Shown: piece by piece, positions 9,760 through 16,840 of the stretch
Position numbering within the stretch: position 1 is the stretch's first letter
How the letters are laid out: each line of letters opens with the position of its first letter
Notes under the pieces: generated by a model
Databases searched by the model: none
What the model saw: the letters and a program-made list of their open reading frames with translations, nothing else
What the model was told of the DNA's origin: nothing
IMG/VR virus record: IMGVR_UViG_3300021962_000745
Location: 1-21,777 of that record
DNA from: a virus
Strand: one strand, 5' to 3'
DNA length: 21,777 nt
Made by a program: the position numbers and the translations under genes

Positions 9760-10875
9760 TTAATCCTCTCGTTTCAAGTAGGTTGTTTCGCCAAATGGTG
9801 CAGGCGTGGCGTCGCCGACTGATGACACCCAAAGTACTGGGTAATCAGGTGCTTCTGGGTATCGGTAAATGCCGAGGTCAGTGAACACCACACAGTTATC
9901 GACATTCAGTGAATGCTCCTCGACGTAATCGAATGCTGCTCGAACGTCAGTGCCACCTCGTCCACCGATCTTAATGTTATCGATGACCTCGCCCTGCTCA
10001 TACCGATGAACGGTTTGAACACGACTATCGAAGGTGATGACAGTGATCGATGAAGGCTTGAGCTCCTCGCTCAAAGCGTTCATCCCGCCAAGAAAGTATT
10101 GCAGTTCACTGTCGTGCACTGACCCGCTGCTGTCGGTCATAAGAACCACATCACCAACCCCGACCTTCTCAATGCTTGGAGCAAAGACATGGGCGGTGTG
10201 GTAGAGCTTCTTATTGGGCCGACGCATTGTGTAGTCGTCTGGTTGATCACCACCGATGAACCGCCGCATCACGTCAAGCCAGTCAACTTGATTGCGCTTC
10301 ATGCGTTGCACGATAGCATCGATAGCGGCAGGTAACTTACCGACCGCCTTGGCACTGGCCGCAGCCATCATAACTTTGGCGTCTATGTCAGCCTCTAGCT
10401 GCTTCTTCTCGGCGTCTGAGAGGCCATCTAGATCAATGACCTCACCCATCTTTGCCAAAGTGCCAAGCTCCTGCACCACATCCTCTGGCAATCGGTAATA
10501 GATAGCCTCGGCACTGAGCCCGTTGTATTGCGGGTCATAAAGTGCTCCCGCTGGTAACGTGAAGCCACTTTCCAGAAGGATGCCGTTGATTGCGTAGTCT
10601 GCCGCAATGTTCCAGCGTTCTGGGTCACGTTCTCCACGTCGCAGAGGATGCTTCATCACAATGTGCATGACTTCATGTGCAGTCACGCCAGTGGTCTCCT
10701 CCCCAGTCATGCCGTCAACAAAGTCGGGTGACCAGAGAATTGACTTGCCGTCAGTGCACATCGTGTCGATGGATGTGTCGTGCTCGACGCGAACCGACAA
10801 AGCAACTGAGCCAAAGAAGGGATGCGACACTACAAGTCGCGTGATGGCCCGCGCCATCTTTGTTTGAGCGTCCAT
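9760..10875 (-). CDS. DUF2201-type metallopeptidase-like/VWA protein
   Basis: A 371-aa protein with two parts. The N-terminal half carries a zinc-peptidase-like helix HEVMH (67-71) followed by RWNIAADYAINGIL and GLSAEAIYYRLP, typical of the DUF2201_N family. The C-terminal half is a von Willebrand A-like domain with a complete MIDAS metal site: DSSGS (248-252), T309/D310 in GGRGGTD and D333 in VVFTDLG. In bacteria such proteins are the partners of MoxR AAA+ ATPases, and that ATPase is encoded immediately upstream. The pair is thought to work as a chaperone or metal-insertion-like remodelling system; its substrate in phages is unknown. ATG 10875 follows CGAGGAAAC. Confidence 0.85.
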   Translation of the reverse strand: MDAQTKMARAITRLVVSHPFFGSVALSVRVEHDTSIDTMCTDGKSILWSPDFVDGMTGEETTGVTAHEVMHIVMKHPLRRGERDPERWNIAADYAINGILLESGFTLPAGALYDPQYNGLSAEAIYYRLPEDVVQELGTLAKMGEVIDLDGLSDAEKKQLEADIDAKVMMAAASAKAVGKLPAAIDAIVQRMKRNQVDWLDVMRRFIGGDQPDDYTMRRPNKKLYHTAHVFAPSIEKVGVGDVVLMTDSSGSVHDSELQYFLGGMNALSEELKPSSITVITFDSRVQTVHRYEQGEVIDNIKIGGRGGTDVRAAFDYVEEHSLNVDNCVVFTDLGIYRYPEAPDYPVLWVSSVGDATPAPFGETTYLKRED

Positions 10876-10892
10876 GATTGTTTCCTCGAAAA

Positions 10893-10904
10893 GTTCAATT
10901 GAAC
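10893..10904. promoter_or_regulatory. Perfect palindrome GTTCAATTGAAC (operator candidate)
   Basis: A 12-bp perfect palindrome 18 bp upstream of the VWA gene start and 32 bp after the stop of the MoxR gene. It is identical to the site at 15846-15857. A bound protein here could act on transcription of the VWA gene; this is inference. Confidence 0.55.
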
Positions 10905-10932
10905 AAAAAGCAGCACCCGGCGGAAAGTCGGG
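10904..10932 (-). terminator. Weak terminator-like hairpin after the MoxR gene
   Basis: On the minus strand a CCCG/CGGG stem with a 9-nt interior (10916-10932) is followed, after TGCTGC, by a T5 run. The short stem and the delayed T run make it weak; it could attenuate rather than stop transcription between the ATPase and VWA genes. Confidence 0.35.
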
Positions 10933-10935
10933 ACA

Positions 10936-11955
10936 CTACAGCACCAATTGCTTGGCGCTGCTGACAATCCACTCTCGAACCGCTGGAACTTGTTTCAGAT
11001 CCTTGTTGCGATTGAGTGCGTCCTTGATAACGAACACCGCGAACTCTTGTTGCGGTATGCGTTTGAGATACTTGATCACGTTGCCTGCGTTCGACTTGTT
11101 AACGCGAGACGAAAGCGCAGCGCAGATCGCATACATAACCGCAGGATCATCTGCTAGTTTGGCACTGTCCGGGTTGGCGATCAGTGCATCGATGTCGGGC
11201 ACTGCATCATAAAGCTTTAGGAAGCCCATGAAGTCTGCTGTTGCAGCGCGACCAACCTGCCCAGCAATAGCCTCTTGCAAGCAGATGGGATCTAGGCTCC
11301 AGCTAAGTATCGATGATACCCGCTCCCAAGAGCGTGGAGACGGGCAGGAGTTGGCGTCTCTATCGAACTTGTGCAACCACTCAGGCCTGAACCGCAAGAA
11401 CGCACAGACACGCTCGTCTGCACCGATGCTGTACAAGTAAGCGATGGCATCCTCTAGATCGGCTTCGATCTCCAAGAACATTAAGCGATCACGCAGGTGG
11501 GTTGGCATGTTGTTAGTGCCAGCCCGGTCAGAGGTGCGGTTGCCAGCCGCCACAATCACCCAACCCGGAGGCAGGTGGTGGTCACCCACGCGCCGCTCGT
11601 TTACGATCTGTGCGGCGATGTTTTGGTTGGCGACAGGAGCCTGTGGAAGCTCGTCCAAGAACAAGATGCCCTTACCACTGGAAGGCATCCAGTCTGGACG
11701 AAGGCGGGTCATGGCGCTGTTGTCAGCGTTAGGTACCAGCCAGCCTGCGATCTCGCCAGCGTCATGCTGGGCCAGCGATACAATCTTGCACTCGACCTCG
11801 CGCTTCTTGGCGATGTCCTTGATTGATGTGGTCTTGCCGATACCAGCGCCAGAGACGAGGTAAGGCACAAGGTACTGAGCATCTCGACCATCCTTCAGAG
11901 ACAAGGCGTGATCGATTGCTGCTTCGACAATGTTTTGAGCTTGTGAAAGTTTCAT
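10936..11955 (-). CDS. MoxR-type AAA+ ATPase
   Basis: A 339-aa ATPase with Walker A GAGIGKTT (36-43), Walker B ILFLDEL (97-103), a sensor-1 asparagine in VIVAAGNR (N139) and an arginine-finger stretch HLRDRLMF. This is the AAA_5/MoxR group, which forms ring ATPases that work with VWA-domain partners. The partner is the next gene downstream (9760-10875), so the phage carries a complete MoxR/VWA unit. The C-terminal 130 residues are helical with no known motif. ATG 11955 follows CGAGGGGAAC. ATPase identity is confident; the biological job in the phage is not known. Confidence 0.88.
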   Translation of the reverse strand: MKLSQAQNIVEAAIDHALSLKDGRDAQYLVPYLVSGAGIGKTTSIKDIAKKREVECKIVSLAQHDAGEIAGWLVPNADNSAMTRLRPDWMPSSGKGILFLDELPQAPVANQNIAAQIVNERRVGDHHLPPGWVIVAAGNRTSDRAGTNNMPTHLRDRLMFLEIEADLEDAIAYLYSIGADERVCAFLRFRPEWLHKFDRDANSCPSPRSWERVSSILSWSLDPICLQEAIAGQVGRAATADFMGFLKLYDAVPDIDALIANPDSAKLADDPAVMYAICAALSSRVNKSNAGNVIKYLKRIPQQEFAVFVIKDALNRNKDLKQVPAVREWIVSSAKQLVL

Positions 11956-14134: not shown

Positions 14135-14160
14135 GATTGTATCTCCTCAGATTAGGCTAG

Positions 14161-14180
14161 AAAAAAGGGGCCGCAGCCCC
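14161..14180 (-). terminator. Rho-independent terminator, leftward
   Basis: On the minus strand a GGGGC/GCCCC stem with loop TGCG is followed directly by six Ts. It lies 11 bp after the stop of the 146-aa gene and upstream of the Ala/Glu/Lys-rich gene. Confidence 0.85.
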
Positions 14181-15132: not shown

Positions 15133-15282
15133 TTATCCTCTCTTCAGCGCTTCCATCAGCGCGGCTAGTTCGACGTTGGTCAGCATGATCGTGCTGAACG
15201 GATGTTTGACGTAGTAGGAAGCAACCCTGTTGGCGTTGGCCGCAGTAGGCGACTTCATGTACTTGGCTATCAATTTCTTCAC
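15133..15282 (-). CDS. Small conserved-type phage protein (49 aa), first gene of leftward operon
   Basis: GTG 15282 follows AGGGGAGAAC. The product MKKLIAKYMKSPTAANANRV continues with ASYYVKHPFSTIM and ends in a helix LAALMEALKRG. The KY-x-x-(S/N)PT-x-ANA-x-R pattern is familiar from short proteins in phage early regions, function unknown. An in-frame ATG at 15405 would add 41 residues but has no ribosome-binding site and runs through the predicted leader RNA, so the GTG is preferred. Confidence 0.65.
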   Translation of the reverse strand: MKKLIAKYMKSPTAANANRVASYYVKHPFSTIMLTNVELAALMEALKRG

Positions 15283-15704
15283 TATGTTCTCCCCTGATTG
15301 CACAATGATGCAGCGCATTCCCGACACGCTGCACTGTTCTGAAATCAAAAGTAGCGCCAGTTTCTCTAACTGCCTTTCCCGTTCTCTACCCTCCCAGCGT
15401 GGCATAACTAACCAATGGCATCTCGGCAGGAGTGCGTTTTGGAGGCGCAAGCCCGCTTTCCCGACAACCACCAGTCAATCAACTGCTTGGTCCGATACTT
15501 GAAATCGGCAGTACCCCGTTTGGTGGGAAGTCCAGTCTTCATGGGGAAGGGTGATGCCGGGGGATGGAAGCCCGACAGCCAATCCGCTAGGACCGAAACT
15601 ACCTCCGAGAGCCGAAGCTCTTCTCTCGTCTGTCGACGTTTGTCTCTCTTCCCCGGAGGTCTGGGGGCGTAAGCCCATGAGGGGCCACGACACCATAAGG
15701 TGCA
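15283..15704 (-). ncRNA. Hairpin-rich leader or non-coding RNA candidate (strand tentative)
   Basis: No convincing gene fits here, yet the sequence is full of complementary segments: TGCAGCG/CGCTGCA (15309-15333), CAGTT/AACTG (15358-15372), GCG-GGC/GCC-CGC (15434-15456), ACTG-CCGAT/ATCGG-CAGT (15482-15512), GAAG/CTTC (15527-15540), TGCCGGG/CCCGACA (15555-15577, one mismatch), ACCTCCG/CGGAGGT (15601-15660) enclosing AGAGC/GCTCT, GGGC/GCCC (15665-15676) and CACC/GGTG (15691-15702). A sigma70-like promoter at 15711-15738 would start a minus-strand transcript at about 15704, right at the last hairpin, and that strand holds a C-UUCG-G tetraloop. The plus strand instead has two GNRA loops, so orientation is not settled. 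It matches no RNA class I know. Confidence 0.5.
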
Positions 15705-15710
15705 TTGGGG

Positions 15711-15738
15711 ATAATATAGATATCTACAGACTTGTCTA
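15711..15738 (-). promoter_or_regulatory. Sigma70-like promoter, leftward
   Basis: The minus strand reads TAGACA (15733-15738), a 16-bp spacer, then TATTAT (15711-15716); each hexamer matches consensus at five of six positions. The expected transcription start is near 15704. It would drive the long leader and the leftward operon beginning at 15282. Confidence 0.6.
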
Positions 15739-15780: not shown

Positions 15781-15811
15781 TAAAACCCCAAGCAGACTGC
15801 GGGTTTGCAGT
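15781..15811 (+). other. Overlapping alternative hairpins
   Basis: ACTGC pairs with GCAGT (15796-15811), while AAACCC (15783-15788) pairs with GGGTTT (15801-15806), which is the loop of the first hairpin. The two cannot be arranged as simple separate stems, so this may be a pseudoknot or switch, or part of the packaging site upstream of TerS. Confidence 0.35.
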
Positions 15812-15845
15812 GACAAAAAAAGTTGGGTGAGGTAGATTGAAAGAA

Positions 15846-15928: not shown

Positions 15929-16444
15929 ATGACAGATAAACCCAAGCTAACAGTCGTAGGTGGTACAGGCACTCAAAGAGGGAAGACCAAGAAGGTGACA
16001 AGGAAGAGTGCCATCCAGCCCAATGGGCTCACGGCAAAGCAAGAGGCCTTTGCATTGGCGGTGTTCGAGGGCAAAAGCTTTAGCGATGCATACCGGGAAG
16101 CTTATGACGCTGAGAACATGCAGCCAGCAACGATACACAGGCAGGCTTACGAGCTGGCAATTCACCCCAAGGTAGCAGCAAGGTTGGATGAGCTGCATAG
16201 TCAAAAGGAGAGGGAACGGCGCATGCAGTCGCTCTCTAGAAGCGATCTTGTTTTGAAACAGCTAGAAAAGATAGCTTTGGACGGGGACATGCAGGACGGT
16301 GCACGGGTCCGAGCACTGGAGCTGCTTGGCAAGAGCGTTGCACTGTTCACCGATAGGGTTGAGACCGAGGACAAGACTGACCGCACTGCGGCTGAGATCG
16401 AACGAGACCTCAAAGAGAAACTGAAGCGGCTGGGGCTGGGTTAG
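15929..16444 (+). CDS. Terminase small subunit (TerS)
   Basis: A 171-aa protein starting at ATG 15929 behind GAGGTAACC. A basic N-terminus (RGKTKKVTRKSA) precedes a helix-turn-helix region of the Terminase_2 type: LTAKQEAFALAVFEGKSFSD, AYREAYDAE and IHPKVAARLDEL (about residues 34-90). The C-terminal half is long and helical (oligomerisation), with acidic and basic charge runs up to LKEKLKRLGLG. TerS rings bind the packaging site and hand DNA to the large subunit. The gene starts the rightward packaging operon, two genes before TerL. Confidence 0.85.
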   Translation: MTDKPKLTVVGGTGTQRGKTKKVTRKSAIQPNGLTAKQEAFALAVFEGKSFSDAYREAYDAENMQPATIHRQAYELAIHPKVAARLDELHSQKERERRMQSLSRSDLVLKQLEKIALDGDMQDGARVRALELLGKSVALFTDRVETEDKTDRTAAEIERDLKEKLKRLGLG

Positions 16445-16750
16445 GGAAGGTGAGGTTTTTGCGACAATTATAAGGTATAGGTTTTTTTCCTTTTTTCTCT
16501 GACCCCCACCACCCCCCACCCCCCTTTGATCGGCGCGGCGTCGCGCGATTTACATACATGATATTCCCCACATCCAAACACCATCTAGGTTCACATGGGG
16601 GTCCGGGTACTATACCTAAAAAATTGAAACGCCTTCTAAGGCTCTGAGAGCCTCCGTGGAGTGCCGTCAACACTTCATAGGCTGGGGTAGTACATAATTC
16701 TCGTGATGGTTAGTCAGAGGCCGTCTCTGTGGCAAAGACGATAACTCCCT
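16445..16750. other. Gene-free segment between TerS and the next gene, with C-rich tract and small hairpins
   Basis: No gene with a ribosome-binding site was found. The segment holds a C-rich tract with runs of 5, 2, 6 and 6 Cs (16503-16524), a GC-only inverted repeat CGCG/CGCG (about 16529-16548), GGTA/TACC, GGCTC/GAGCC (loop TGA, near 16637-16649), CTCC/GGAG, and two mutually exclusive stems: CAGAG/CTCTG (16715-16729) versus CGTCT/AGACG (16722-16740). A packaging site or an untranslated regulatory leader would fit. Confidence 0.4.
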
Positions 16751-16840
16751 ATATATAATATATATATATATATAATATACTTATCTCTCTCTCTTTTAGA
16801 GAGAGAGAGAGTATATATAATAATATATAATATATATATA
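16751..16840 (+). other. AT/CT hairpin element, copy B
   Basis: An alternating AT-rich arm (16751-16780) is followed by an 11-bp perfect hairpin TCTCTCTCTCT/AGAGAGAGAGA with loop TTT (16784-16808) and a second AT-rich arm (16811-16840) largely complementary to the first. Layout and composition match the element at 6008-6102. Confidence 0.65.

Follow-up and report, generated by a model that had tools for sequence, protein, structure and literature searches.

A conserved pseudoknotted RNA beside the terminase small subunit gene of an uncultured phage, probably the 5′ leader of the divergent operon

In an uncultured phage, the minus strand between two gene blocks of opposite direction encodes a conserved, pseudoknotted RNA of about 335 nt, which lies directly behind a leftward promoter of conserved position and keeps the same genomic context in its homologues. 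This RNA is probably the structured 5′ leader of the leftward operon and would act on the entire transcript or on the polymerase. Not many phage structured RNAs of such size are known, and most are without a function. Here the fold is well supported, the promoter is defined, the genomic place is single and constant, and an alignment is available for building models, so the role of this RNA is directly testable. The sequence studied, referred to herein as the window, comprises positions 1-21,777 of IMGVR_UViG_3300021962_000745, in which the RNA region (15283-15738) is flanked by the start of a leftward gene at about 15282 and by the rightward terminase small subunit gene terS at 15929:

15133-15282 (−): first leftward gene, with a GTG start and a GGGGAG Shine-Dalgarno sequence at 15289-15294; 49 aa, no family
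15711-15738 (−): leftward promoter, with −35 TAGACA (15733-15738), a 16-nt spacer and −10 TATTAT (15711-15716); TTGAYA-N17-TAnnnn at the same place in homologues
15929-16444 (+): divergent terS (phrog_51, E=1.3e-18), which adjoins the RNA in all homologues with flank

The rightward block of the window continues with TerL (17780, phrog_38) and portal (19302, phrog_1216). Among the genes of the leftward block are many small unknown ones, together with an ATPase and, after it, a DUF2201/VWA protein; the block ends close to an intrinsic terminator at 8363-8342 and, judged from its gene content, is probably early. Within it, the ATPase (phrog_1297) stands next to the DUF2201 metallopeptidase/VWA protein (9760-11955, −), forming a MoxR/VWA-like pair in a phage. 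The same block contains a strong intrinsic terminator, GGGGCTGCGGCCCC-TTTTTT (14160-14180, −), which was not seen early in relatives.

The upstream regions of TerS relatives, compared by blastn and alignment, revealed a conserved element, and two motif scans of viral contigs and a profile search then collected its homologues (IMG/VR); their loci carry L-numbers. The architecture of the window is termed type A and a second one type B. About 38 loci were found, representing 20 distinct sequences. The window matches type A with E=2.4e-42 in nhmmer and with 90.6 bits (E=1.2e-21) against the covariance model R1, whose training set includes it, while L178, outside the training set, is recovered by R1 at 107 bits. 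In 10 records searched whole, which may be incomplete, R1 finds one copy per record and none twice. Wherever the flank is long enough, terS is encoded divergently, in most cases at 220-340 nt from the start of the RNA, and a motif scan made without terS arrived at the same context. On the other side, the distance from the RNA end to the first ATG is mostly 65-86 nt, even though close relatives have unrelated first genes; L018 and L022, for example, have nearly identical RNAs followed by genes that begin with MTAKMILEN and MIMHPVINN, respectively. No T-run terminator separates the RNA from the first leftward gene.

Other candidates were discarded. Two motif-retrieved loci (L195 and L166) are chance matches, and the 18-base 5′ motif, searched in genome contigs for prophages and hosts, gave 91 stretches that are likewise taken as chance because the type A profile recovers none of them at E≤1. 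The phages HTVC023P, HTVC027P, 023Pt_psg01 and DSL-LC04 have a related TerL; their terS arrangement differs, and R1 matches nothing in the stretches examined.

The fold of the type A RNA, read on the minus strand from its 5′ end, is composed of the following parts:

15369-15704 (−): structured RNA from the 5′ hairpin to P13; about 335 nt, about ten helices, with a pseudoknot
15690-15703 (−): P1a hairpin, GCACC/GGTGT; GCGGC/GCCGT in L002, a compensatory change
15672-15686 (−): P2 hairpin, GGCCC/GGGCT
15651-15667 (−): P3 hairpin, CCCC/GGGG (CCGC/GCGG in most homologues), whose loop contains the 5′ strand of the pseudoknot
15655-15660 and 15601-15606 (−): P4 pseudoknot, 5′ strand ACCTCC and 3′ strand GGAGGT; double changes in all 5 pair columns
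15627-15638 (−): P5 hairpin inside the pseudoknot, CGTC-GACA-GACG; CGCC/GGCG in L002, elsewhere GCC/GGC or GGC/GCC
15608-15621 (−): extra UUCG hairpin, AGAGC/GCTCT; present in the window and, with a TTTG loop, in L002; most homologues lack it
15529-15600 (−): P6 arm, AGT+CGGTC/GACTG+ACT, which encloses P7
15571-15577 and 15555-15561 (−): P7, TGTCGGG/CCCGGCA
15515-15527 (−): P8 hairpin, CCC-ACCAAAC-GGG, with invariant CAAAC in the loop; stem TCT/AGA in L104
15507-15512 and 15369-15374 (−): P13 long-range helix, 5′ strand ACTGCC and 3′ strand GGCAGT, found by RNAalifold
15492-15508 (−): P9 hairpin, CCGAT/ATCGG, its first two bases common to P13
15382-15387 (−): AGAGAA motif, with hardly any variation in type A (L017 has AGGGAA); within a hairpin loop in type B
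15295-15347 (−): P14, the final hairpin before the Shine-Dalgarno sequence, outer stem TGATT/AATCA and inner stem TGCAGCG/CGCTGCA; position and internal-loop layout alike in types A and B

The evidence for this fold is comparative. Across the 20 distinct homologues, compensatory change is strong in at least seven helices, including the P4 pseudoknot and the long-range helix P13, with the reservation that the 20 rows are not independent because most come from a few clades. The core alignment has 18 distinct rows; of its cells, 91.1% are paired compared with 78.6 ± 1.0 in shuffles, and 15 of 32 pairs show double changes; the score of 0.332, against 0.132, was reached by none of 500 shuffles. Sliding the alignment by 1-3 columns lowers pairing to 31-57%, and all slid controls are beaten. 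For P13, no cell in the 20 sequences is unpaired, double changes occur in 4 of the 6 pairs, and again 0/500 shuffles score as high. True partners pair in 129 of 132 cases (98%), swapped partners in 67%; these helix statistics refer to position-defined helices only, the hand-picked strands of P1, P2, P5, P7, P11 and P12 being illustrative. Folding energy behaves otherwise. The minimum free energy of the region does not lie below that of shuffled controls (z = −0.96 on the minus strand, +0.20 on the plus strand), and ten homologues range from z −0.6 to +2.8 over both strands. A structured RNA had originally been predicted here with both checks in view, and it failed the second while passing the first; the case for it is covariation, not folding energy.

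Several of the individual helices had been anticipated. The TGCAGCG/CGCTGCA stem (15327-15333/15309-15315) is present as the inner part of P14. The long-range stem ACCTCC(G)/(C)GGAGGT around the hairpin AGAGC-UUCG-GCUCU has become the pseudoknot P4, in which the loop of P3 pairs with the five bases directly ahead of P6. All five of its strand combinations are paired (CTCTC/GAGAG, GATCC/GGATC, GATCC/GGATT, GCTTT/AAAGC and ACCTC/GAGGT), and a sixth pair, C-G in the window and L104, is replaced by A opposite A in the others. The proposed two-part stem was only half right: CCGAT/ATCGG exists (15504-15508/15492-15496), but its local extension ACTG/CAGT is not a conserved pairing, since in all 20 sequences the strand that reads ACTGCC in the window pairs instead with GGCAGT about 140 nt further on. 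This helix, P13, reads ACCACT/GGTGGT, with the variants AGCACT/GGTGCT, ACCATT/GATGGT and, in the window, ACTGCC/GGCAGT. P6b occurs in nine strand combinations with at most one mismatch each. The 5′ hairpin domain varies: P1/P2 is GGTGTCGG/CCGGCACC in L018 and GAAGCA/TGCTTC in L104, whereas the window and L002 have two short hairpins in its place (GCACC/GGTGT or GCGGC/GCCGT, then GGCCC/GGGCY).

The strand is decided by two features. In the position-defined helices read on the minus strand, G-U pairs outnumber A-C oppositions by 13 to 2, which on the plus strand would become 13 A-C and 2 G-U; in addition, the leftward promoter is conserved. Because of this balance and this promoter the RNA is placed on the minus strand. 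A plus-strand RNA, which GNRA-like loops (GCAA, GTAA) had brought to mind, is ruled out by the same balance and by the side on which the promoter lies. The TAGACA-N16-TATTAT promoter and its start at the outermost hairpin are as first described: the first strand of P1a, GCACC, begins at 15703, 7 nt past the −10 hexamer of the window, and the RNA 5′ end is estimated at 15703-15704. In nearly all type A loci, TTGAYA-N17-TAnnnn ends 4-8 nt ahead of the RNA 5′ end.

Ten loci (L004, L005, L012, L019, L020, L109, L194, L301, L307 and L309) belong to type B, which mostly keeps the promoter position, the 5′ hairpin, AGAGAA and P14 but differs from type A in the middle; its AGAGAA sits in a hairpin loop, and the stem below this loop varies in paired fashion. 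Since L012 and L014 (type B) and L013 (type A) share nearly identical flanks, the middle is apparently swapped as a single module, pointing to recombination. L023 may represent a third architecture (type C). A hairpin at L315:2395-2430, TGCAGCCC-TGCG-GGGCTGCA, equals the type B P14 of L109 and stands ahead of an XRE regulator gene in the Rhodobacter phage RcapNL. With 25 nt in common, it was judged a common palindrome rather than a homologue of the RNA. It may point to Rhodobacterales as hosts of some type B phages.

The G-U strand signal, the conserved leftward promoter, the absence of an intervening T-run terminator and the nearly fixed gene distance make a structured leader of the leftward operon the best fit among the three functions originally offered. 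Transcription from 15738-15711 would start at about 15703, and the first 335 nt or so fold compactly: a 5′ hairpin domain, the P3 loop pairing downstream to form P4 around P5, then the long P6/P7 arm, P8 with its invariant CAAAC loop, and P13 closing the 3′ domain and displaying AGAGAA, before P14 and the Shine-Dalgarno sequence of the first gene. As the leader persists where the first gene is replaced by another, it would act on the whole transcript or the polymerase and not on a single gene; its constant place behind the promoter, its independence from the first gene and the modular exchange argue in the same direction. We infer co-transcription with the operon, early timing and an action on elongation. 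Against the leader reading stand the ordinary folding energy, the two short hairpins that take the place of the 5′ hairpin domain in the window and L002, and the rarity of early terminators: conserved ones, expected for antitermination, were not found, most homologues having none in the first kilobases and only the window a strong early one (14180-14167).

The main rival is a trans-acting regulatory RNA, cut from the operon transcript or ending near P14, that acts on targets in the host or the phage, or assembles into an RNP, while the leftward genes are only carried along. Its size and complexity resemble those of free-standing ornate RNAs, its unpaired motifs are nearly invariant (in type A the CAAAC loop, in both types AGAGAA), and the first genes are not conserved; however, no T-run terminator follows P14, and the start codon lies at a nearly fixed distance whatever the first gene, so we regard this reading as rather unlikely. 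A leader could also be processed and act in trans, and if the RNA acts in this way, it would represent a novel type of RNA for host takeover by a phage. Still less probable is a riboswitch or attenuator that senses a ligand, a protein or the infection state and switches the leftward operon on or off. A complex pseudoknotted fold in a 5′ UTR with P14 beside the Shine-Dalgarno sequence would suit such a device, but neither a conserved terminator/antiterminator nor masking of the Shine-Dalgarno sequence was seen, the first genes represent no common pathway, and the middle module is swapped between nearly identical flanks (L013 versus L012/L014).

The constant adjacency of terS suggests an RNA or site for packaging tied to the terminase, and beyond this adjacency the idea, part of the original prediction, found no support. 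Phage phi29 has no TerS, and its pRNA is part of the packaging motor. Like that molecule, the present RNA is a phage RNA gene with packaging genes nearby; in contrast, it is transcribed away from terS in a phage that encodes both TerS and TerL, and it has no Rfam match. A pac or cos site would be DNA, whereas base-pair conservation that includes G-U pairs argues for RNA. A packaging role in either form is therefore very improbable. Even more so is a small protein-coding gene with incidental hairpins: the region does contain an open frame of 76 aa on the minus strand (15475-15705) and another of 85 aa on the plus strand (15415-15672), but each homologue carries 7-12 indels that are not multiples of three and break the frame, the open frames differ with none in common, and the helices show double compensatory changes.

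Returning to the structured leader, comparison with known RNAs offers an analogy but no family. As predicted, the region does not resemble RNase P, tmRNA, introns or riboswitches: no Rfam 15 family, including these and ROOL and GOLLD, exceeds the gathering threshold in the window, relaxed thresholds gave chance-level matches only (window, L018 and L109), and ARAGORN found no tRNA or tmRNA in the window. Annotated phages contain no homologue for the window, L018 or L163, apart from one 24-nt chance match for the window, and a literature search of open-licence papers found no description of the RNA. By these Rfam, annotated-phage and literature tests it qualifies as a new RNA family. ROOL and GOLLD, too, are large and elaborate RNAs found in phages and prophages, and their function is unknown; they range from 659 nt (a ROOL example) to more than 800 nt and often lie beside tRNA islands (PMC12286853), whereas the RNA described here is shorter, adjoins terS and precedes an operon.

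The closest parallel in logic is put of phage HK022 (putL/putR), an element of about 70 nt with two stem-loops, present at both early promoters, that binds the β′ zinc-binding domain of RNA polymerase and suppresses termination (PMC9378689). As a nascent RNA, put works in cis close to an early phage promoter and targets the polymerase instead of a single gene, a logic that the RNA described here is proposed to share. The latter is much larger (about 335-400 nt), has a pseudoknot and a long-range helix, and occurs once per genome instead of twice; with such differences in size, fold and copy number, it is not assigned to put. Tentatively, the nascent leader might modify host RNA polymerase in a put-like manner or otherwise secure expression of the long leftward operon, and an action on the polymerase would extend RNA-only antitermination far past the small put elements. 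More speculatively still, a large modular nascent RNA of uncultured phages could, with no protein dedicated to the task, reprogram the RNA polymerase (or the ribosomes) of the host for the early operon as a whole, its central modules (A, B, perhaps C) being swapped between a common 5′ hairpin and a 3′ AGAGAA/P14 end.

A separate promoter, located further to the right, serves the rightward transcript (GTGACA-N17-TAGATT, 15810-15838, +); it is conserved as GTGACA-N17-TAnnnT directly 5′ of a palindrome and terS, and a conserved CCGAAAGGCCTAGCGCAGCG block lies just ahead of the terS start. Between terS and the next gene, 16740-16800 is AT-rich, with a TATATA run and C/T tracts. The palindrome, AAGTTCNNNNGAACTT, occurs in five copies on the plus strand with at most one mismatch (1751, 2309, 13409, 15844 and 16921), against 0.09 expected, and none of 100 shuffles reaches five. 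The copy at 15844 lies just past the terS promoter; relatives keep the palindrome at this place, with GTTCGAGCGAAC and GTTCAATTGCAC as further forms. These palindromes are probably operator sites of a phage regulon.
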